This document shows positions 6,061 to 27,918 of a DNA stretch of 56,308 bases, one piece after another. The first letter of the stretch is position 1; the number at the start of each line of letters is the position of its first letter. A program made the position numbers and the translations under genes. Source of the stretch: Limisphaerales bacterium (lineage in GTDB: Bacteria; Verrucomicrobiota; Verrucomicrobiia; Limisphaerales; UBA11358); contig JANYFN010000112.1 in assembly GCA_025362675.1 (NCBI GenBank), forward strand, positions 1-56,308, in the 5' to 3' direction. The notes below the pieces were generated by a model. That model did not search any database. It was not told the origin of the DNA and was given only the letters and a program-made list of their open reading frames with translations.

Positions 6061-7017
6061 ATGCCTGTAAATTTTGTCGAGATCAGGGTCAAAGGGAAAC
6101 CCACGCAGGTTCCAGCGGTTGAAATTGAAGGACGCACGATCATTGCCAAAGGTGGCCGGATCAAAATCGCGTCTGTCCGTGACGAAGAATTAACGGAAGG
6201 CGAGCTGGTCAAAAACCCGGAGACTTTCGTGGCCGCACTTAAAGTGAGCGGCTTGCCCGCTGACGTGCTGACTTTTTTCCAACGCGTGCCCGACGCAAAG
6301 CCGAAGTTCGCGCACACGTTTGAGTTGGAAAATTATGCGGTGGTGCCGGTCACGACGTTTGAAGCGTGGTGGGATAAGTTGCCGCAGGAAGCACGCAAAA
6401 ATGCGCGCCGTGCGACCAAGCGCGGCGTCGAAGTAAAAGTTGCTCCGTTCGATGATGAACTCGCGCGTGGCATCCACAAGATTTGCAACGAAACGCCCGT
6501 GCGCCAAGGCCGTCCGTTTTGGCACTACGGCAAAGATTTTGAGACGATCAAAATGGAGCATGCGACCTATCTCGAACGCAGCGAATTTATCGCCGCCTAT
6601 TTTGAGAGCGAGTTGATCGGGTTCATCAAAATAGTTTATGTGGATCGGCTGGCCTACATCCTCGCGATCCTCGCGTTGAATGCGCACTACGATAAACGCC
6701 CGATGAATGCGCTGCTGGCCAAAGCGATGGAAGTGTGTGCGGCAAAAAAAATCGGTTATTTCGTTTACGGCAATTACGTTTACGGAAACAAGAAAGATAG
6801 TTCGTTGGTGGAATTCAAACGGCGTAACGGTTTTGAACAAGCCGATTATCCGCGTTATTACCTGCCGCTGACGCTCAAGGGTCGGATCTTTGTGGCCTTG
6901 AGATTGTATCGTGGATTATCGGGTTTGTTGCCCGCGCCCGTGTTGGCGTTTGGGTTGCGCGTGCGCGACACGTTTTATAAAAAGAAAGAAAAAACAATTG
7001 CTACGAAAGAAGATTGA
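6061..7017 (+). CDS. GNAT/FemAB-like acyltransferase-fold protein
   Basis: A 318-residue protein; the ATG just after the asparagine synthase stop is preferred over an in-frame upstream start that overlaps it. The middle and C-terminal parts look like an N-acyltransferase fold: YFESELIGFIKIVYVDRLAYI, then LNALLAKAMEVCAAKKIGYFVYGNYVYG and a final FKRRNGFEQ. This matches GNAT/FemAB-type proteins of exopolysaccharide clusters that acylate amino sugars or attach amino acids. Function is inferred from fold-like patterns and neighbourhood. Confidence 0.6.
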   Translation: MPVNFVEIRVKGKPTQVPAVEIEGRTIIAKGGRIKIASVRDEELTEGELVKNPETFVAALKVSGLPADVLTFFQRVPDAKPKFAHTFELENYAVVPVTTFEAWWDKLPQEARKNARRATKRGVEVKVAPFDDELARGIHKICNETPVRQGRPFWHYGKDFETIKMEHATYLERSEFIAAYFESELIGFIKIVYVDRLAYILAILALNAHYDKRPMNALLAKAMEVCAAKKIGYFVYGNYVYGNKKDSSLVEFKRRNGFEQADYPRYYLPLTLKGRIFVALRLYRGLSGLLPAPVLAFGLRVRDTFYKKKEKTIATKED

Positions 7018-18821: not shown

Positions 18822-20096
18822 ATGAAATTGAAAAACCATCAGCCCAAGCGGGTTCTTGACCAAGGCACTTTAGTGATATGCCTTGGAATCGCCTCGCTAA
18901 CTGCGGGCAGACTTTATGCGGAGGCCCCGGTGATTTACAGCGGGCCGCTTGTGCCGGTCACACCAGCCGCGGTGCTCGATCAAGAACAACAAAATTTGAC
19001 CAATTCACCGAGCGTATTCATCCCGGCCAGTGAGGCGCGGCGTTCCAATCTTCCCCAAATTTTTCGCAGCGGCCCGTTAGACGTCCGTCCACATTTCGGC
19101 TACCAATTTTTGTATGGCACGGGCATCCAGTCCACCCCCAGCATCAGTGGCGCAACTGAAATTCACACGCTCACGCCTGGTTTTTTATTAGAGTATGGCT
19201 CGCACTGGGCCTTGGATTACACGCCGACGTTGGTATTTTATTCCAACAAACTATTTCATGACACGCTGGGACACTCGGTGAAGTTGAGTGGTAGCACACA
19301 GTATGAGGACTGGCAGTTTGGCCTGCAACAATCCTATGACAATTCTGAGCAGGTCCTGGCAGAAACCGGCGGGCAGTCACAACAAGAATCATTCGGAACG
19401 ATCTTAAATGCCTCGCGCGTTTTGAACGATAAGATGTCGGCAGACTTCAGTCTTGCTCAAAAAATGCAGGACACTGACGGCTTCCAAAGTTCGGCTGATT
19501 GGTCCCTAAGCAGTTTCTTGAACTACCAGTTTTGGGAACGGTTGACGGTGAGTGGTGGCGCAATTCTCGGATATGTCAGTCTGGATTTGGGCGACGACCA
19601 GACATATCAAGATTTTCAGGCGCGGGTCAACTGGCGCATCACCGACAAAATGGGTCTAAGTGCCAACGTCGGCGGAGAAGCTCGCGAATTTGCCGGCGGC
19701 GGCACGCTTTTTTCGCCCGTTTATGGTGCCACCTTTCAGTATCAGCCGCGCCCGCGCACGCAGTTTTCTTTCGGGGCGAATAGTTCGGTTCAACCCTCAC
19801 TGTTTCAAGGTCAGGTTACGGACACTACTTCCTTCACCGCGAGTGTCAGCCAGCATCTGTTCAAGAAATTCGATCTGGCCTTGAGCGCCAGTTTTAGTAT
19901 GACAGATTATACCCAATCGAGCGGAGCCTCCAACCGGCGTGACGAAAATAACGCTTACAATGCGCGGTTAAGCCATCCGATTTTTAAGCGCGGCACCATT
20001 TCGGCGATCTACCAATTTAGTGACAACCACTCTTCTCAGGGTAAATTCTCTTTCCGCAGCAACCAAGTTGGTGGAGAATTTAGCTACTCATTTTGA
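18822..20096 (+). CDS. Outer-membrane beta-barrel protein of the exosortase locus
   Basis: The 424-residue protein has a likely signal peptide (basic start, then LVICLGIASLTAGRLYAEA). From about residue 90 it shows alternating aromatic/hydrophobic strands, with many Tyr, Phe and Gln, and it ends in Phe (GGEFSYSF), as outer-membrane barrels do. It resembles the barrel proteins commonly encoded beside exosortases in exopolysaccharide loci. It may be an outer-membrane port for glycan or sorted proteins. An AGGA sequence precedes the ATG. Family placement is by composition and context, not by a diagnostic motif. Confidence 0.75.
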   Translation: MKLKNHQPKRVLDQGTLVICLGIASLTAGRLYAEAPVIYSGPLVPVTPAAVLDQEQQNLTNSPSVFIPASEARRSNLPQIFRSGPLDVRPHFGYQFLYGTGIQSTPSISGATEIHTLTPGFLLEYGSHWALDYTPTLVFYSNKLFHDTLGHSVKLSGSTQYEDWQFGLQQSYDNSEQVLAETGGQSQQESFGTILNASRVLNDKMSADFSLAQKMQDTDGFQSSADWSLSSFLNYQFWERLTVSGGAILGYVSLDLGDDQTYQDFQARVNWRITDKMGLSANVGGEAREFAGGGTLFSPVYGATFQYQPRPRTQFSFGANSSVQPSLFQGQVTDTTSFTASVSQHLFKKFDLALSASFSMTDYTQSSGASNRRDENNAYNARLSHPIFKRGTISAIYQFSDNHSSQGKFSFRSNQVGGEFSYSF

Positions 20097-20127: not shown

Positions 20128-20991
20128 ATGAAACAAAAAAATTTTATCATCGCCACGGCTATTTTGGTGATGCTTTTCAGCCTACCACTCTGGCGGCTTA
20201 TCCGGTTTGCCGCACCGGATGATTTATATTCCTACATCTTGCTGATTCCTTTTATCAGCTTGTATCTCGTCTGGCTGAATCGAGGCAAACTTCCGGCTGC
20301 CGGATCGCCGGCAGTCAAAACCGCATCGTTGTTTTTTATTTTGGGTCTGAGCTTTCTGGCCTGGTATTGGCTGCAACCACCGGTCTTGCTCGTGAACGAA
20401 CTGGCACTCACGACGCTGTCGTTTGTATTTTTTCTGGCGGGTGTGGCCGGTATTTTTCTCGGCGGCAGATTGATGTGGTCCGTGGCTTTTCCGCTGGCGC
20501 TGCTCATTTTTTTGGTGCCATTCCCGCAAGCAGTGCGGGACGGCATCGAGAGTTTTTTGCAATATGGTTCGGCCGAAGTAGCAGATTGGATGTTTCAAAT
20601 TTCCGGGATGACCTATTTTCGCAATGGGCTGCTGTTCAAACTTCCAACGATCAGTCTTCAGGTCGCTCCAGAGTGCAGTGGGATTCACTCCACCGTCGTC
20701 CTATTCATCACTAGCCTCGTTGCTGGACAAATGTTGCTGCAAAGAACCAAGGGGCGCGCCGCGCTCGCGCTTTTTGTCCTCCCGCTGGCCTTGTTTCGGA
20801 ATGCATTTCGCATCTTTGTGCTCGGGCAACTTTGTGTCCACATCGGGCCACACATGATTGATTCCCCGATCCATCATCATGGCGGTCCTTTATTTTTTGC
20901 GCTGTCCCTAGTGCCGTTTTTTGCGTTGCTGTATTACCTGAAAAAATCAGAGATGAAGAACCGGGATGGCGTGTCGATAATTAAAAAATAA
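20128..20991 (+). CDS. Exosortase (transmembrane sorting protease)
   Basis: The 287-residue, roughly eight-segment membrane protein has the exosortase/archaeosortase triad: Cys183 in APECSGI, Arg228 in FRNAFRI and His in the HHHGG run at 249-253. The family cleaves C-terminal sorting tails after secretion and probably transfers the protein to an envelope or extracellular glycan. The EpsI-type partner domain seen in some exosortases is absent. An AGGGAG ribosome-binding site sits 6 bases before the ATG. It is one base from the TPR lipoprotein gene and 3.5 kb before a gene with a matching VPD-type tail, its likely substrate. The exosortase subclass cannot be fixed without a profile search. Confidence 0.93.
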   Translation: MKQKNFIIATAILVMLFSLPLWRLIRFAAPDDLYSYILLIPFISLYLVWLNRGKLPAAGSPAVKTASLFFILGLSFLAWYWLQPPVLLVNELALTTLSFVFFLAGVAGIFLGGRLMWSVAFPLALLIFLVPFPQAVRDGIESFLQYGSAEVADWMFQISGMTYFRNGLLFKLPTISLQVAPECSGIHSTVVLFITSLVAGQMLLQRTKGRAALALFVLPLALFRNAFRIFVLGQLCVHIGPHMIDSPIHHHGGPLFFALSLVPFFALLYYLKKSEMKNRDGVSIIKK

Positions 20992-20992
20992 G

Positions 20993-23900
20993 ATGAAAAA
21001 ATCCATCAAGCTATTACCGCTGATTGTGTTGGTTGTGATCACCGGAGTTGTCGGGGCAGGCTGCACGGCCAAGGTCAAGAAGGCCTACCATGAGCGGCGC
21101 GCGGAAAAATATTTTACCGCTGGCGATTGGGATCGCGCCGAGATTGAATACTTGAACGTGCTCAAGAATGATCATGAAAATGTCATGGCTTCGACACGTT
21201 TGGGAGGGATTTATTATGACCAAGGGCGGCTCCAGCGCGCGGCCTATTTTCTGGGCCGCGCTTCCACGCTTGCTACCAACGACCTTGATGTGCGGTTAAA
21301 ACTTGGATTTATTTATTCGACGTTGGGACAATACAAGGAGGCTCGCGAGGCGGCCGAATATATCTTGTCGCACAATCCTAAGGATGATCAGGCGCCCGTG
21401 CTGTTGGCCGAGTCGGCGGTGCGTTCCAACGATATCGTGGCGGTGCAGCAAAAACTCCAACTGATCGCCAAAAATGCGGACCGCGCTTCGGTGGAGGTTG
21501 CTTTGGGTAATCTGGCTTTCCGGCAAAATGATTTCAAAACGGCGGCGGATGCTTTTCGCCGGGCTCAAAAGATGGATGCAAAATCTTCGCCCGTGAATGC
21601 AGCGCTCGCTTCGATGAGCTGGTGGGAAAAAGATTTGAAACAGGCGGACATTTATTTCAAGGCTGCCGCCGATGCTTCACCCAAACAATTATCCTATCGC
21701 ATGCAATATGCGCGCTTCAAAATAAAGACCGGCCACCTAGACGAGGCGCAGGCTATCCTGAACGAGATTTCGTCGAATGCCCCGAGCTTCGTGCCGGCGC
21801 TGATGGCGCGGGCGGAGATTGTCGGCGGGCAGAAAAAATATGATGAGAGCGAAGAATTGCTTTCAAAGGTGTTGGCGCGCGACGAATTCAATTTTGAAGC
21901 CATGCTTTTCAAGGGGCAGATCTGCCAGATGCGGGGCGATAATGCTGGGGCCTTGCAAGCTCTAAGTAGGTTGGTGCGCCAATTCCCACAGGCTCCCGCC
22001 GCTTATTACTTTCTAGCGAAGGCCAATGTCGCCGCCGACGATGCTACCAGTGCTTTGGCAAATTTGAGCCGGGCGCTCGACATGCAGCCCGAGTTCACGG
22101 AGGCGCTGGTGTTGCAGTCGCAGTTGCTTTTGCAAAGCGGCAATGCTAACCCCGTCATTGTCACTCTGGAGAAACTGCGGGACAAGCAGCCGGAGAACTT
22201 AGAGGCACAATTATTACTGGCAGACGCCTACCGGATGAAAAACCGTTTGGAAGATGCCCAGGACATTTATCGGACGCTCGAGGCAAGGTTTACGAACAAT
22301 GTGCAGTTACCGATGTTGCTGGGCGCGGCGTATCTACAAACCCAAAATGCTCCGGCGGCCCGGGCGGAGTTCTTGAAAGCGTTGCAATTGGAACCGGATA
22401 ATTTAACGGCGTTGAACCAGTTGGTGGATGCGGACATTGCGCGGAAAAAATTTGATGAGGTGCTGGCGCGGTTAGATTCGGAACTGACCAGACGTCCGAA
22501 GGTCGTTGACATACATCTAATGATGGCAAAAACGTTCATTGCCAAAGGAGACGTCCCAAAAGCCGAGGCAAAACTCATGCAAACGGCGGCGTTGGATCCG
22601 AAAAATCCATTCGCAAATCTGTTGCTGGCGCAGTTGTATGTGAATGCCAATGACCATGCCAAAGCGCTTGCTAAATTGCAGGCGGCGCTCGCAAGTTCTA
22701 CCAATAATATTTCAGCCTGGATGATGAGCGCATCCATTCATGAAGCTGATAAGGAATATGCCACGGCGGCGGCGGACTATGAAAAAGTTTTGGCCCTCGC
22801 CCCTAAATTTAGTCTGGCACTGAATAATCTGGCTTGTTTGTATTCGGAACAATTGAACCAGCTTGACCGGGCCTTTGAGCTTGCGCAGCAGGGACGGAAG
22901 TTATTGCCCTACGATCCTTCAGCGGCCGACACGCTCGGTTGGATTTATTATCGGCGGGGAGATTATTCCAGCGCGTTTGCCTTGCTAAAAGAAAGCGTTG
23001 CCAAACCCGTCACCGCCAGTATCCCCGAAATCCAGTATCACTTTGGTATGGCGAGTTACATGATGGCGGAAGAGGCCCTGGCGCAACCCGCATTGAACAT
23101 GGCGTTCAGTAAAACCAAAGAAAATGAATTCCCGTGGCGCCCGGATTGCCAGCTCGCATTATCGTTGCTCGCCATCAATCCGCAAACGGCGGATGCGGCG
23201 GCCCAGAAATTGTTGGAAAAGCGCATCGCAGAACGAGCTGAGGATCCGGTAGCCCTGACCCGTTTAGGCGGAATTCATGCGCGAGATGGTCAGGTTGATA
23301 AGGCGTTGGCAACTTATCAAAGAATGTTGACCGCCTTCCCTAACCACCTGCCGACCATGGTCAGCATGGCCAGACTATATGCTACGAAGGACTTGGCCAA
23401 GGCGTGCCAAGTGGCTAAAGATGCTTTCAAACTCGCTCCCTACGACGTAAAGGTGCAACAGTTATTAGGTCAACTGGCTTACGCTACGAAGGATTTCAAA
23501 TTATCCGTCAATGTGCTCCAAGAGGCGGTCAAGCAACATGTCAACGATCCTCAGTTGTTTTTAGATTTAGCACGGGCGGATTTCGCCGTGGGAAAAATTT
23601 CTGACGCTCAATCGGCATTGAGCCAATCTTTGGCACTCAACCCGGTGCCCGAGTTGGCTGCTAAGTGCCAGCTTATGCTCGGTCTGGCTGAAAAATTTAC
23701 GGCATCGTCAATACCCGTCAGCAATGCCGCGAAGTTGGCGGATATTTTAAAACAGGCGCCCGATTACCTGCCAGCGCTCGCCGTTCAAGCCGGGATGTTT
23801 GCCCAATCTGGTGATTCGGCGGCCGCGATCGCCAATTACGAAAAAATTCTGTTGCTTTATCCCGATTTTGCCCCCGGACAAAAAGCGCTGGCCTTGTTGT

Positions 23901-24223
23901 ATCTCAACGACCCCTCCAAACGGAATCGCGCCTACGAACTAGCTATCCAAGCGCGTGATTTTTATCCCGAAGATGCCGCTTTGACCAAAGCGCAGGGGAT
24001 CATCCAGTTTGATAAGGGAGACTACCTGCGCGCGTTGAGCCTCTTGAAGCAAAGCGCAATTAATTTAGAGCGAGACCCCGAAGTTTTTTATTATCTTGGC
24101 GCGACCGAATATCGAACCAAAGATCGCGCCGCTAGCAAGGCGAGTCTGCAAAAGGCTTTAAGCTTGAAGCTCGCCGAGCCGCTAGCAGAATCTGCGCGTA
24201 AATTACTTGCTGAAATTAAATAA
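20993..24223 (+). CDS. prsT: Large TPR-repeat lipoprotein, PrsT-like
   Basis: The 1076-residue protein starts with a lipoprotein signal ending in VVGAGC (lipobox, Cys23). It then consists almost entirely of tetratricopeptide repeats (for example AEIEYLNVLKNDHENVMAST and NNLACLYSEQLNQLDRAFEL). Length, lipidation and position match the PEP-CTERM-system TPR lipoprotein PrsT. Such a periplasm-facing scaffold probably couples glycan assembly to the outer-membrane barrel or export complex. It starts one base after the exosortase stop and is followed by a terminator, so it ends the main operon. The symbol is given by architecture. Confidence 0.82.
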   Translation: MKKSIKLLPLIVLVVITGVVGAGCTAKVKKAYHERRAEKYFTAGDWDRAEIEYLNVLKNDHENVMASTRLGGIYYDQGRLQRAAYFLGRASTLATNDLDVRLKLGFIYSTLGQYKEAREAAEYILSHNPKDDQAPVLLAESAVRSNDIVAVQQKLQLIAKNADRASVEVALGNLAFRQNDFKTAADAFRRAQKMDAKSSPVNAALASMSWWEKDLKQADIYFKAAADASPKQLSYRMQYARFKIKTGHLDEAQAILNEISSNAPSFVPALMARAEIVGGQKKYDESEELLSKVLARDEFNFEAMLFKGQICQMRGDNAGALQALSRLVRQFPQAPAAYYFLAKANVAADDATSALANLSRALDMQPEFTEALVLQSQLLLQSGNANPVIVTLEKLRDKQPENLEAQLLLADAYRMKNRLEDAQDIYRTLEARFTNNVQLPMLLGAAYLQTQNAPAARAEFLKALQLEPDNLTALNQLVDADIARKKFDEVLARLDSELTRRPKVVDIHLMMAKTFIAKGDVPKAEAKLMQTAALDPKNPFANLLLAQLYVNANDHAKALAKLQAALASSTNNISAWMMSASIHEADKEYATAAADYEKVLALAPKFSLALNNLACLYSEQLNQLDRAFELAQQGRKLLPYDPSAADTLGWIYYRRGDYSSAFALLKESVAKPVTASIPEIQYHFGMASYMMAEEALAQPALNMAFSKTKENEFPWRPDCQLALSLLAINPQTADAAAQKLLEKRIAERAEDPVALTRLGGIHARDGQVDKALATYQRMLTAFPNHLPTMVSMARLYATKDLAKACQVAKDAFKLAPYDVKVQQLLGQLAYATKDFKLSVNVLQEAVKQHVNDPQLFLDLARADFAVGKISDAQSALSQSLALNPVPELAAKCQLMLGLAEKFTASSIPVSNAAKLADILKQAPDYLPALAVQAGMFAQSGDSAAAIANYEKILLLYPDFAPGQKALALLYLNDPSKRNRAYELAIQARDFYPEDAALTKAQGIIQFDKGDYLRALSLLKQSAINLERDPEVFYYLGATEYRTKDRAASKASLQKALSLKLAEPLAESARKLLAEIK

Positions 24224-24252
24224 CTAAAAATTTCGAGCAATAATTCCTCAGG

Positions 24253-24283
24253 CCCGACAAACGTAGTTTTGTCGGGTTTTTTT
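24253..24283 (+). terminator. Rho-independent terminator
   Basis: CCCGACAAA and TTTGTCGGG pair around a short loop and are followed by seven or more T residues. It lies about 30 bases after the TPR gene and closes the long glycan/exosortase transcript. Confidence 0.9.
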
Positions 24284-24386
24284 ACATTTTTAACGATGCC
24301 AACAAATGATACTGTCTATATTATGGATTTTTATAAGTATCTTGTAATAAGTTGTTTAAAATGATTTGTTGGCCTTGGTTTTTCTA

Positions 24387-24404
24387 TTGGCATCAGTGAT
24401 GCTT
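24387..24404 (+). promoter_or_regulatory. Sigma-54 (-24/-12) promoter
   Basis: TTGGCATCAGTGATGCTT has GG at 24389-24390 and GC at 24401-24402, exactly 10 bases apart. The -24 block is TTGGCA and the -12 block is ATGCT. Transcription would start near 24414, about 40 bases before the substrate gene. A sigma-54 activator of the PrsR type is encoded 1.2 kb downstream, which supports the assignment. Confidence 0.75.
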
Positions 24405-24452
24405 CATGCGTCGAGAATCAAATAGATTCGTGACCAACTCTAATAATTAATT

Positions 24453-24950
24453 ATGAAAAAAACATATCTAGTGCTCGCCCTGATGGCGATTGTCTCATTG
24501 GCTCAAGCCAACACGTGTGCGGTGCTAAACAGCGTCAGCATTAACAACAGCAGCTACAATTGTAATCTGACCCCGACGCTCGGCGTTGGCAGCGGTTTGC
24601 AAGTGAGCGGCTGCGCTTTCACATTCAACAACTGCTCCACGACGACTTGGGGTGGCGGTTTGTTGTATTGCAACATTGGTGGCACCACCATCGGCACTTG
24701 CACTAAGACTACGACCAGCTGGATTTGCAATTTGGATGCTACGGGCTTGACCACCTTGAACAACTGCATCACTTCCGGCACCAAATGCGACTTCGGTGTC
24801 ACTTGCTCTGGCGGTTGGAACATTGGCGGCTGCACCGCGAATTATACCTGCAATCCAGTGCCGAAGTCGGTGCCGGACGCTGCGTCCACCGCGTCGCTGC
24901 TCTCGCTGGGTGTGGCTGCGGTTTCGCTGCTCCGCCGCAAGCTCGTTTGA
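24453..24950 (+). CDS. Small cysteine-rich secreted protein with VPD-type exosortase sorting tail
   Basis: The 165-residue protein has a signal peptide (MKKTYLVLALMAIVSLAQA). Its roughly 120-residue mature body is rich in Thr, Asn, Gly and Ser, with 12 cysteines. From residue 140 the tail reads VPDAAST, then a hydrophobic helix, then LLRRKLV. This is the motif-helix-basic order of VPDSG-CTERM/PEP-CTERM sorting signals, here a VPDAA variant. It is monocistronic, flanked by terminators and preceded by a sigma-54 promoter. No ribosome-binding site is seen; AATTAATT directly precedes the ATG. It is the likely substrate of the nearby exosortase, perhaps a matrix or surface protein. The body resembles no family I recognise. 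Confidence 0.85.
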   Translation: MKKTYLVLALMAIVSLAQANTCAVLNSVSINNSSYNCNLTPTLGVGSGLQVSGCAFTFNNCSTTTWGGGLLYCNIGGTTIGTCTKTTTSWICNLDATGLTTLNNCITSGTKCDFGVTCSGGWNIGGCTANYTCNPVPKSVPDAASTASLLSLGVAAVSLLRRKLV

Positions 24951-24975
24951 TTTTCTGCCAACCCTAAATAAACAC

Positions 24976-25007
24976 AATGCCGGTGATGAAAATCACCGGC
25001 ATTTTTA
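24976..25007 (+). terminator. Rho-independent terminator
   Basis: AATGCCGGTGA and TCACCGGCATT form a perfect 11-bp stem followed by a T-rich run. It lies 26 bases after the cysteine-rich substrate gene and isolates it from the Wza-like gene. Confidence 0.88.
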
Positions 25008-25024
25008 TTTGCATCTTGTTTTCC

Positions 25025-25038
25025 GGAGTTATTTTTGC
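25025..25038 (+). promoter_or_regulatory. Possible weak sigma-54 promoter
   Basis: CCGGAGTTATTTTTGC keeps the GG-N10-GC spacing and a good TTTGC -12 element, but the -24 block (CGGAG) is poor. It would start transcription about 10 bases before the Wza-like gene. A chance match of this quality in so short a region is quite possible. Confidence 0.3.
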
Positions 25039-25059
25039 GACAACATATAAATATTAATT

Positions 25060-25692
25060 ATGAAAATAAAAATTCTTTCCAAGCCGGTCGGGTTGGTTCT
25101 TATGCTGTCGCTGGTGACAGTTATATTTTCTGGTTGCGAAACAACTCCGTCACATCAACCGGCGCAAACTGCGTTAGAGGATTCACACGTTGAAGGAATT
25201 ATTCTGCGCGCCGGCGATGCGATCAAAGTCAGTTTTCCGGGATCATCCAATCTTGATACCGCCCAGCCCATCCGCCGGGATGGAAAAATAGTTATGCCCT
25301 TAGTCGGTGAAGTTGAGGCAGCCGGCCTGACTCCCGATGCATTGCAGCAAAAACTCGTTAAGCTTTACGCCTCGCAGATATCTTCGAGCGAAGTGCTGGT
25401 GACTTTGGAATCCTCCTCATTTCCGGTGTTCGTCACGGGCTCGGTTATCCATCCCGGAAAAATTTTGTCTGATCATCCGATCACCGCTTTGGAAGCCGTC
25501 ATGGAAGCCGGAGGCTTTGACTACAACACCGCCAATATGAAGGCCGTGAAAATTTCGCGCATGGAAAAAGGTCAGATGAAAAATTACACGCTCGACTTAA
25601 AGGCGGTGCTAACCGGCAACAAGAATGCAAAACCTTTTTATCTCAAGCCCAACGACATCGTTTTCATCCCCGAACGACTCATGATATTCTGA
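25060..25692 (+). CDS. Wza-like polysaccharide export lipoprotein
   Basis: The 210-residue protein has a lipoprotein signal (lipobox FSGC). A Poly_export domain follows (ILRAGDAIKVSFPGSSNLDT, IRRDGKIVMPLVGEVEAAG), then a single SLBB-type domain (FVTGSVIHPGK, ALEAVMEAGGF) and the usual C-terminal IPERL. It is much shorter than full Wza, lacking the C-terminal amphipathic pore helix, so it resembles the compact export proteins of exosortase-linked loci. It probably forms the periplasmic or outer-membrane export ring. Its stop is immediately adjacent to the stop of the convergent regulator gene. Confidence 0.88.
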   Translation: MKIKILSKPVGLVLMLSLVTVIFSGCETTPSHQPAQTALEDSHVEGIILRAGDAIKVSFPGSSNLDTAQPIRRDGKIVMPLVGEVEAAGLTPDALQQKLVKLYASQISSSEVLVTLESSSFPVFVTGSVIHPGKILSDHPITALEAVMEAGGFDYNTANMKAVKISRMEKGQMKNYTLDLKAVLTGNKNAKPFYLKPNDIVFIPERLMIF

Positions 25693-27048
25693 TCATTCCC
25701 GGCTGATGCCCAGCTTATCCATCAGTTCGTAGATGGTAGGTCGGCTCAATCCCAATTCGGCGGCGGCAGGAGCAATTTTGCCACCGTATTTTTTTAAAGC
25801 CTGCTGGAGCAACTGACGCTCGACGGCTTCGCGCGCGTCTTTGAGAGTCGTTACATTCGGTCCCAAGCCGGCAACCGTCAGTTCTAAATCTTTGGCCGTC
25901 ACGCGGCGGCCTTCGCACATGATGGCGGCGCGACGAACGCAATTCTCCAGTTCGCGCACATTCCCGGGCCAAGTATGCCGGTTCATCGCGCGGATGGCAT
26001 CCTGATCAAAGGATAAATTCGTTTTCTTCATATCCGCCGCAAACCGGTTGAGGAAAAATTGTGCCAATAGGCGGACATCCGCATCGCGATCGCGCAGCGG
26101 CGGCAACGTCACTGACACGACGGCGAGACGATAAAATAAATCTTCGCGGAACGTCCCAATCGCCATCGCCTTTTTCAAATCCACATTCGTCGCCGCCACC
26201 ACGCGGGTGTTGATGCGGATTTCCTGGCGGCCGCCGACGCGTTCGATCGTCTGCTCCTGCAAAAAACGCAGCAGTTTCACTTGGATGGGCAGGGGGATTT
26301 CGCCGATTTCATCCAGAAACAAAGTGCCTTCACTGGCGGATTCAATGCGGCCTTTACGTTGCGCGTGGGCGCCGGTGAACGCACCTTTTTCATGCCCGAA
26401 CAATTCGCTCTCCAATAACGTCTCGGGGATCGCGCTGCAATTGATCGCCACGAACGGGCCTTCCCGGCGATTGCTTTTCCGATGCACCGCGCGCGCCGCC
26501 ATTTCCTTACCGGTGCCGCTTTCGCCCAGAATTAAAACGGGAGCGTCCGAAGTAGCCACCTTTCGGATCGTTTCAAAAATCGGCATCATCTGGGTGCTCG
26601 CCCCCAGCATGCCTTCAAACGAATCGCCCTGCACGAGTTGCTGCATCGCCGCGTATTCTTTTTCGAGTTGCACGACATGCAGGCAGCGGCGCAGCAGAAA
26701 TTTCAGTTCGGTCATGTCCACCGGTTTCACCAGAAAATCATAAGCCCCGTTGCCGATCGCGTGGAGCGCGTTCTGCTTTTCGCCCTGACCAGAAATGATG
26801 ATGACCTTGACGAGCCGGTCAATCGAGATGAGTTCGGATAGAATCGCTAAACCTTCCGTTGGATTGCCCGGATGCGGCGGGAGTCCAAGATCCAAAAGCA
26901 CTGCGGAGGGTTGGGCGGTGCGAAACGTATCAATGGCCGAGGCGCGATCTTCCGCGAGAAAAATTTCGTAATCCGAGGCCAGCGCCCATTTCATTTGAGT
27001 GCGGATTTCTTCGTCGTCATCAACGATCAATAATTTTGATTTGCTCAT
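25693..27048 (-). CDS. prsR: Sigma-54-dependent response regulator, PrsR-like
   Basis: The 451-residue protein has an N-terminal receiver (LLIVDDDEEIRTQMK; phospho-acceptor Asp in AVLLDLGLPP near residue 53). A sigma-54 AAA+ domain follows (Walker A GESGTGKE, the sigma-54 contact loop GAFTGA, FLDEIGEIPLP), then a Fis-type helix-turn-helix (APAAAELGLSRPTIYELMDKLG). The receiver segment with GLPPHPGNPTEG and the exosortase setting match the PEP-CTERM-box response regulator PrsR. It should activate -24/-12 promoters such as the one at 24387. Its usual membrane kinase PrsK is not encoded in this window. Confidence 0.88.
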   Translation of the reverse strand: MSKSKLLIVDDDEEIRTQMKWALASDYEIFLAEDRASAIDTFRTAQPSAVLLDLGLPPHPGNPTEGLAILSELISIDRLVKVIIISGQGEKQNALHAIGNGAYDFLVKPVDMTELKFLLRRCLHVVQLEKEYAAMQQLVQGDSFEGMLGASTQMMPIFETIRKVATSDAPVLILGESGTGKEMAARAVHRKSNRREGPFVAINCSAIPETLLESELFGHEKGAFTGAHAQRKGRIESASEGTLFLDEIGEIPLPIQVKLLRFLQEQTIERVGGRQEIRINTRVVAATNVDLKKAMAIGTFREDLFYRLAVVSVTLPPLRDRDADVRLLAQFFLNRFAADMKKTNLSFDQDAIRAMNRHTWPGNVRELENCVRRAAIMCEGRRVTAKDLELTVAGLGPNVTTLKDAREAVERQLLQQALKKYGGKIAPAAAELGLSRPTIYELMDKLGISRE

Positions 27049-27182
27049 GCCCGTAATTGCGGCACAAACCTAAAGCAACCATTAGGGCAGGCAATCAAAA
27101 TCACCCGAAACCTCTCGCCGCCCAAGCCATCCGTCTTCTTCCGGTTATCGCCCTAATCAGCCTGAGCAATTCATTCTAACAA

Positions 27183-27231: not shown

Positions 27232-27759
27232 TTAGAACGACCAGTTCACGATCGGAAAACCGGTCGCGAGCTTATCCGGAAAATCAGTGAACCACGGATT
27301 GTTCGCGGCCACGTTGATGAAGCCGATTTGCACACCGCGCAGATTCTCCGAGTAATTCACGAAGCCGAGTTGTAGGCCGTTCATTTTTTCGGTGACGTTG
27401 ATACCGCCCATTTGCAGGCCGAGGAATTCACCTTGCGAAAAATTCACGAAGCCATCCTGCCAACCTGTGAAACTCGTGCGGCTCACGTTGACTAATCCCC
27501 ACGCGACGCCGCTGTAGCTATCCGCGTAGTTCACCAGACCCCAGCTTAAGCCGCTGCTGTTGCCTGTGCTGCCGTTGACGAAACCCAACGCCAGCGCGTG
27601 CTGCGGGTTCTCACCCCAGATGCTCAGCGCCAAGCCATCGATCTCGGTGGACTTGGAATGGATGGCGATGTCCGGAGTGAGCGAAGCTTGAAAAGCAGAT
27701 TGCGCGCTCAAGCCCAGCGTGACGGATAACAGTGACGATATAAGTAATAGTTTTTTCAT
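27232..27759 (-). CDS. LA_2272-like surface-repeat protein
   Basis: The start was moved to the internal ATG giving MKKLLLISSLLSVTLGLSAQS, a clean signal peptide; upstream in-frame sequence is unlikely to be translated. The 175-residue product consists of short repeats of the form G-x-x-x-GFVN or GLVN (ALALGFVNG, LSWGLVNYA, VAWGLVNVS, LQLGFVNYS, VQIGFINVA). This is the pattern of LA_2272-type surface repeats, which likely form a stacked beta structure. It is probably periplasmic or surface-exposed; function is unknown. Confidence 0.7.
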   Translation of the reverse strand: MKKLLLISSLLSVTLGLSAQSAFQASLTPDIAIHSKSTEIDGLALSIWGENPQHALALGFVNGSTGNSSGLSWGLVNYADSYSGVAWGLVNVSRTSFTGWQDGFVNFSQGEFLGLQMGGINVTEKMNGLQLGFVNYSENLRGVQIGFINVAANNPWFTDFPDKLATGFPIVNWSF

Positions 27760-27918
27760 GTTTAATGTTCCGCAAAGAAATAACTCATTGGCAGCTTGGT
27801 TGCAATGGGGTGAATACCGTATGCCGTATTTTTCCCGCTCCGATGACTTAGTTGGAACCACCAGCGGAATCGCCGGGAGATTTATTTATAAGTTTGGAAA
27901 AATGCGCTAGAGTCCGAC

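Follow-up and report, generated by a model that had tools for sequence, protein, structure and literature searches.

An XrtC-type exosortase, a cysteine-rich VPD-tailed cargo and a candidate PrsR/sigma-54 regulon in a Limisphaerales bacterium

Contig JANYFN010000112.1 of the Limisphaerales bacterium assembly GCA_025362675.1 (Verrucomicrobiota), analyzed here over its entire 56,308 nucleotides and referred to as the window, encodes an exosortase and, starting ~3.5 kb past the exosortase stop codon with one gene (PrsT) in between, a small cysteine-rich protein with a VPD-type tail. We consider it likely (a probability of roughly three in four) that the window is the core locus of an XrtC-type/VPDSG-CTERM sorting system lying in a polysaccharide cluster, and that the cysteine-rich protein is one cargo of a PrsK-PrsR/sigma-54 regulon. 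The evidence consists of protein families, gene order, a promoter with an upstream box, the homology of two forms of the cargo body, and a cysteine alignment; PrsR activation, tail cleavage, glycan attachment, disulfides and any glycan binding are what we infer. The window is contig C147 of a genome (G000) of 4.31 Mb in 306 contigs, 93.6% complete, and the features on which the argument draws are as follows.

18822–20096, plus strand: EpsL-like outer membrane protein (TIGR03014, E 5e-10, 38.9 bits, far under the curated cut-off of 275)
20128–20991, plus strand: XrtC-type exosortase, 287 amino acids (PF09721, 151.5 bits; TIGR04151, 276.2 bits; C183/R228/H249–251)
20993–24223, plus strand: PrsT, TPR-repeat protein (TIGR02917, 329.5 bits, cut-off 312.2)
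24271–24286, plus strand: candidate PrsR box, GTCGG-N6-TTACR, overlapping a terminator-like hairpin (24250–24279)
24388–24403, plus strand: sigma-54 type -24/-12 promoter, GG-N10-GC, 9/11 consensus positions
24453–24950, plus strand: cysteine-rich VPDSG-CTERM cargo, 165 amino acids (PF18205 and TIGR03778 above cut-off)
24976–25003, plus strand: terminator-like hairpin 3' of the cargo gene, a 12-pair stem and then a run of T
25060–25692, plus strand: polysaccharide export protein, Wza type (PF02563, 53.1 bits; SLBB_2, 42.5 bits; both above cut-off)
25693–27048, minus strand: PrsR, sigma-54-dependent response regulator (TIGR02915, 603.2 bits, cut-off 502.6)

The exosortase clears the PF09721 gathering score of 25.7 by a wide margin and retains C183, R228 and H249–H251, the Cys/Arg/His set already picked out in an earlier, sequence-only reading of this DNA; we take C183, R228 and His to be the catalytic residues. 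Profiling against exosortase subclass models, a check which that reading had proposed, places the enzyme nearest to XrtC (276 bits versus 122 for the runner-up model). We call it XrtC-type rather than XrtC, because it is closest to the XrtC model yet under its cut-off (TIGR04151, 300 bits), a threshold reached in 3 of 11 XrtC-positive genomes of the genus. The XrtC (VPDSG-specific) model gives 37 bits to each of the two other exosortases in the genome, versus 276, and among the subclass models these match best to XrtD (91 bits, cut-off 400) and XrtA (115 bits, cut-off 208), respectively. Presumably the XrtC-type enzyme serves VPD tails and the other two serve PEP tails.

The cargo comprises a signal peptide (residues ~1–20, by eye), a body (~21–138) and a tail (~139–165) that lies narrowly above the cut-offs of both tail models (PF18205, 26.4 versus 25; TIGR03778, 22.2 versus 22), so that the VPDSG-like tail first recognized from the sequence 3.5 kb downstream of the enzyme holds. 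All twelve cysteines (residues 22, 37, 54, 61, 73, 83, 92, 105, 112, 118, 127 and 133) fall inside residues 21–138, a Thr/Gly/Asn-rich stretch of 118 residues, much as the sequence-only reading had described.

That reading went on to propose a specialized system in which the exosortase serves the adjacent cysteine-rich protein and nothing else. The two genes are indeed close, with one gene between them, and their position is kept in the genus; however, the genome holds seven further VPD-like tails (on contigs C297, C80, C70, C267, C98, C84 and C196), four of them on genes with the same promoter and box as the window gene, and no other XrtC-like enzyme. On the strength of these tails we reject one enzyme for one cargo, and we regard exclusive service to the neighboring protein as very improbable. 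Because there are several VPD-like tails and no better-matching exosortase, several proteins are likely to be handled by the XrtC-type enzyme; of the combination that was to speak against the pairing, many VPD tails together with a better-matching exosortase elsewhere, only the first half was found. Nor does it argue for specialization that the cargo gene stands alone under a sigma-54 promoter of its own, since this is usual for PEP-CTERM cargo genes as described in Haft 2006 (PMC1569441).

The tails come from a PF18205 search of the genome that returned 14 rows, three of them above the Pfam cut-off (window, C297 and C267); the tails of C70, C80, C98, C84 and C196, which score lower, were admitted on inspection by eye, and in C98 and C196 the motif reads APD instead of VPD. 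Among the other rows, C189, C106 and C8 were assigned to the PEP type, C227 and C66 were judged to be chance matches, and C54 (E 2.25) was dropped. PEP-CTERM proteins account for nine rows above cut-off in the same genome. The C70 protein (L007) carries a legume-lectin domain and its gene has both box and promoter, making it a candidate glycan binder among the cargoes of the regulon. On the minus strand of C267 (L006, tail at 6324–6392), a gene with box and sigma-54 promoter encodes a 56-residue protein in which some six residues separate the signal peptide from a VPDAAST tail and little else is left, an almost empty cargo and perhaps a released peptide. The C196 protein (L015), of 61 amino acids, carries an APDAGS tail, and its gene has a -24/-12-like site (8/11) without a box; on C84 (~24971–27082) a VPDAT-tailed gene, also without a box, lies directly 3' of rpoN.

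The arrangement recurs within the genus. A TIGR04151 search of 49 genus genomes found one XrtC in each of 11, and the other ten positive loci were fetched; an EpsL-like homolog lies directly 5' of XrtC, and PrsT 3' of it, in all 11. The contig of G031 ends after PrsT, leaving ten assessable loci, the window included. In eight of these a same-strand VPD-tailed gene follows PrsT: in six (G000, G062, G021, G027, G066 and G004) the gene in this slot encodes a homolog of the window body, and in two (G011 and G020) it has another body. The pairing of exosortase and cargo, put forward earlier from proximity and motif, is thus supported both by this conservation in relatives and by the enzyme being the only one of three exosortases close to XrtC. 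A 113-protein profile matches 15/49 genus genomes, many of the matches being tail-only; with a body profile lacking the tail (17 fetched loci), seven genomes remain, the six above and G028. Body homologs are confined to XrtC-positive genomes (7/11 versus 0/38, p 3.8e-6, uncorrected for relatedness). Across the order, XrtC was found in 63 of 293 sampled genomes, and 40 of the 56 loci outside the genus were fetched; the rows of L187, L202, L207 and L210 and one PrsT frame of L208 were dropped from the locus survey by eye. Two simpler expectations failed. The cysteine-rich gene is not always beside XrtC, as G028 has the former on C18 and the latter on C120, and VPD tails are not found only where XrtC is, since five XrtC-negative genus genomes have them.

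The cargo gene is preceded, 65 bases 5' of its ATG, by the -24/-12 site TGGCATCAGTGATGCT (24388–24403), whose score of 9/11 recurs in 0.3% of 300 first-order Markov shuffles; the sigma-54 promoter claimed from the sequence therefore stands. All nine slot genes or body homologs of the genus have a site of at least 9/11, 27–80 bases before the start. Among 20 further VPD genes near XrtC (17 from other genera, three from the genus), 18 score at least 8 at -51 to -99, compared with 29 of 423 control open reading frames (ORFs; uncurated frames from ATG to stop, 250 codons or longer) at -25 to -120.

A second element lies above the promoter. A search for words of 6 to 8 bases among 32 VPD regions gave results no better than shuffles; the spaced word GTCG-N7-TTAC is present in 29 of the 32, with at most 8 in each of five shuffled sets. 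Aligned, the box has the 17-nt consensus YGTCGG-N5-YTTACR, and box and sigma-54 promoter occur together in 29/36 VPD genes. The box is absent from all four VPD genes without a -24/-12-like promoter and from all 12 PEP-type genes of the window's own genome (nine above the PEP-CTERM cut-off; the second gene of C86, C270 and C189 below it; the start on C157 uncertain), including C270, which has a promoter-like site of 8/11 at -112. Eight further VPD genes had been identified through their tails rather than a promoter, among them a third VPD frame of L204 left out of both the promoter comparison and the 36-gene set; six have both elements, three of these in XrtC-negative genomes. The distance from box to promoter is 97–101 in 16 of the 29 genes and 109–112 in eight, the remaining five having 44, 83, 123, 131 and 132, and it is 181 in the VPD gene of G067. 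The two main distances differ by about one helical turn, as expected for an activator that acts by DNA looping. A second box, 76–153 bases above the first, is found in eight of the 29 (L067, L068, L037, L175, L177, L191, L196 and L205), suggesting tandem candidate activator sites.

In the window's genome, the box lies 5' of VPD genes on C147, C80, C70, C267 and C297, the C297 copy departing from the pattern. The exact box has 31 genome-wide matches versus 19 for its reverse; six of the 31 have a promoter-like site (score of at least 8) within 30–145 bases and then an ORF start, and these six comprise the VPD genes of C147, C80, C70 and C267 and non-VPD genes of C130 and C214. The sigma-54 pattern alone is hardly enriched (28 versus 23 reversed), four of the 28 sitting 53–74 bases before VPD genes. 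By eye, the pattern also occurs shortly 5' of flagellar- or PII-like genes (L079 and L080 on C91, L085 on C153, L075 on C60).

Terminators had been proposed on both sides of the cargo gene. Hairpin-plus-T sites do lie on both sides (24250–24279 and 24976–25003), but the same scan finds 15 such sites in 5.2 kb versus 7.5 expected from shuffles. The upstream hairpin has CCCGAC and GTCGGG arms and runs into the box (24250–24286); because it overlaps the box at 24271–24286, it may serve for protein binding, whether in addition to termination or in its place.

The regulators expected for such a system are present: PrsT and PrsR in the window, and PrsK (387.1 bits, cut-off 300) and RpoN (421.3, cut-off 277.35) elsewhere in the genome, all above cut-off. 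PrsK is encoded on C80, directly 3' of a VPD gene, and in G020 a histidine-kinase-like gene (by eye) lies between the slot VPD gene and PrsR. We take YGTCGG-N5-YTTACR to be a putative PrsR box, because it agrees in length and 3' end with a motif of Proteobacteria and because the same three proteins (PrsK, PrsR and PrsT) are present; the comparison with the published motif covers its length and 3' end.

The cargo body itself occurs in two forms. Four of the six body homologs in the genus XrtC slot are cysteine-poor, and structure prediction suggests a small jelly-roll beta-sandwich for the body, with an ordinary hydrophobic core in most known relatives. The cysteine-rich form, for which 16 relatives beyond the window cargo were found, is shorter by ~30 middle residues. 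Nine of its 11 conserved cysteines fall in hydrophobic columns of the predicted jelly roll, although this matching is approximate because identity between the forms is ~30% and the predicted model of the window protein is poor (mean pLDDT 53). In the window branch, part of the chain was probably lost and cysteines took over many positions of the core, which would leave a compact domain, probably held together by disulfides.

The same low identity and low-confidence model would fit two unrelated bodies sharing only signal peptide and tail, with the core swap an alignment artifact. We think this improbable: single-sequence searches from the cysteine-rich protein reach two cysteine-poor matches over residues 76–164 (E 5e-10 and 1.5e-7), the reverse search matches the cysteine-rich P0015 (E 8e-7), and the tail-less body profile finds three cysteine-rich genus proteins at 1e-25 or better, though it was itself built with cysteine-rich rows. 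Both forms also occupy the same chromosomal slot, and P0106 (213 amino acids), a full-length member of the body family, has 14 cysteines, some at positions common with the short cysteine-rich form; it is either an intermediate or a parallel case. Support for a single origin of the cysteine-rich form differs between trees. In the full tree, a branch with support 96 separates the 19 cysteine-rich rows from the others. With the cysteine columns removed, P0106 falls among the cysteine-poor rows, but the tree holding all 19 together scored higher (p-AU 0.914). A fold search with the low-confidence cysteine-rich model gave no match at E 0.001. The predicted cysteine-poor model has middling matches to viral coats, lectins and Eph receptors, a common arrangement, and its match to the BcsB domain of bacterial cellulose synthase is one of fold only (13% identity over the match) and does not imply sugar binding.

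Twelve cysteines in 118 residues would also suit a surface protein that binds metal and forms no disulfides, and in G028 the cysteine-rich gene adjoins respiratory-oxidase-like genes (by eye). Against this, CxxC, CxC and CC are absent from 17 of 18 cysteine-rich members (the exception being P0017) and most of the cysteines coincide with hydrophobic positions in the homologous fold, so we hold metal binding to be quite unlikely. The mature part has an odd number of cysteines in 11 of the 18 members, the window protein having 12; an odd-count member must therefore have at least one thiol that is free or bonded outside the chain. A further-reaching picture, which we offer tentatively and with the odds against it, is that of a PrsR/sigma-54 regulon devoted to VPD-tailed proteins across an order of Verrucomicrobiota, in which one cargo family swapped most of its jelly-roll hydrophobic core for cysteines. 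Because most members have an odd count, a spare thiol could link neighboring molecules, and the exosortase would place a surface material which oxidation cross-links into a covalent, glycan-borne network.

Several observations weigh against the XrtC-type/VPDSG-CTERM regulon as set out above. The window exosortase scores under the NCBIfam XrtC cut-off (276 versus 300); two of the ten assessable genus loci (G028 and G064) have no VPD gene after PrsT; and outside the genus a same-strand VPD gene lies within ~9 kb downstream in 10 of 40 loci, several contigs ending sooner, while the four best body matches are on contigs other than that of XrtC. The 32 genes from which the box was found had been pre-selected for a -24/-12-like site, three of the eight VPD-like genes of the window's genome (C84, C98 and C196) lack a box, and ~30% identity with a mean pLDDT of 53 makes the matching of cysteines to core positions only approximate. 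VPD-type tails also occur in five genus genomes in which no XrtC was detected (G067, G026, G071, G007 and G008), and in three of these (G067, G026 and G007) the VPD genes (L115, L117 and L121) have box and promoter all the same. Either XrtC is missing from these drafts, or another exosortase is able to serve VPD tails. If the latter were general, VPD tails would not be tied to XrtC and the shared neighborhood would reflect common regulation only, an idea to which the two other exosortases of the window's genome lend some weight. We judge it unlikely: the XrtC model gives those two enzymes 37 bits each, the stated completeness of the five draft genomes is 66–95%, and body homologs occur only alongside XrtC.

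We retain the regulon reading. Among ten genes scanned upstream in the window are glycosyltransferases, an ABC exporter carrying a Wzt domain, and proteins resembling asparagine synthase. Beyond PrsR, on the minus strand at 27232–27861, a protein has short internal GLVN- and GFVN-like repeats. In the mechanism that we propose, PrsK would sense a cue and PrsR would bind the box ~100 bases above the -24/-12 promoter and loop to RpoN polymerase, so that many VPD cargo genes are probably switched on together. The signal peptide would take each cargo across the inner membrane, where the C-terminal tail helix would keep it anchored until the exosortase, through C183, R228 and His, cuts at VPD and the body is released or handed to the surface polysaccharide. 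By analogy with a PEP-CTERM protein described in Aquincola tertiaricarbonis (PMC9850573), the cargoes would hold surface polysaccharide.

Exosortase cargoes are numerous, diverse and scattered, which makes these systems hard to study. Box and promoter together flag VPD cargo genes from DNA alone, apart from the PEP-type genes of the same genome, and so provide a testable cargo list; they suggest that one cell runs two sorting pathways under separate control, and they point to PrsR-type control beyond Proteobacteria. Cysteine-poor and cysteine-rich forms in one slot constitute a natural experiment on a secreted fold that trades a hydrophobic core for cysteines. In a literature search that took in few subscription papers, we found no account of a PrsR-type box and promoter on Verrucomicrobiota VPD genes, separate from PEP-type genes, and none of a cargo family in cysteine-poor and cysteine-rich forms.

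The closest known system is PEP-CTERM/EpsH as described in Haft 2006 (PMC1569441), with which the present one has in common an exosortase, tailed cargo mostly in single-gene units preceded by long upstream regions, PrsR, PrsK, PrsT, a sigma-54 site and an upstream motif of 17 nt with a similar 3' end. In that account, PEP-CTERM cargo genes usually form single-gene units with their own sigma-54 promoter and long upstream regions; in Proteobacteria, a motif ending in TTTACA and a sigma-54 site (mean spacer 62.8) precede them, and the phylogenetic profile of the motif matches that of PrsK, PrsR and PrsT. Of the species treated there, only Proteobacteria have the motif in common, and Table 1 of that paper lists Verrucomicrobium spinosum without PrsK, PrsR or PrsT. 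Here, by contrast, the tail is VPD, the enzyme is XrtC-type, the box-promoter distance is mostly 97–101 or 109–112, and the PEP-type genes of the window's genome lack the box in 12 of 12 cases. Aquincola tertiaricarbonis, as reported (PMC9850573), likewise has an RpoN-dependent tailed cargo gene beside prsT (pepA-prsT; -24 TGGCAC, -12 CTGCTT) with a part in floc formation, its overexpression restoring flocs and bound polymer; it differs from the window locus in its PEP tail, its phylum and the position of the cargo 5' of prsT. For the cargo itself, Myxococcus TraA (PMC3325183) combines a cysteine-rich region, in which its authors expect disulfides, with a C-terminal sorting tag on one surface protein, although it has tandem repeats along with a PA14 lectin-like domain and the tag is MYXO-CTERM. 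The combination seen in the window cargo thus has a precedent in myxobacteria.

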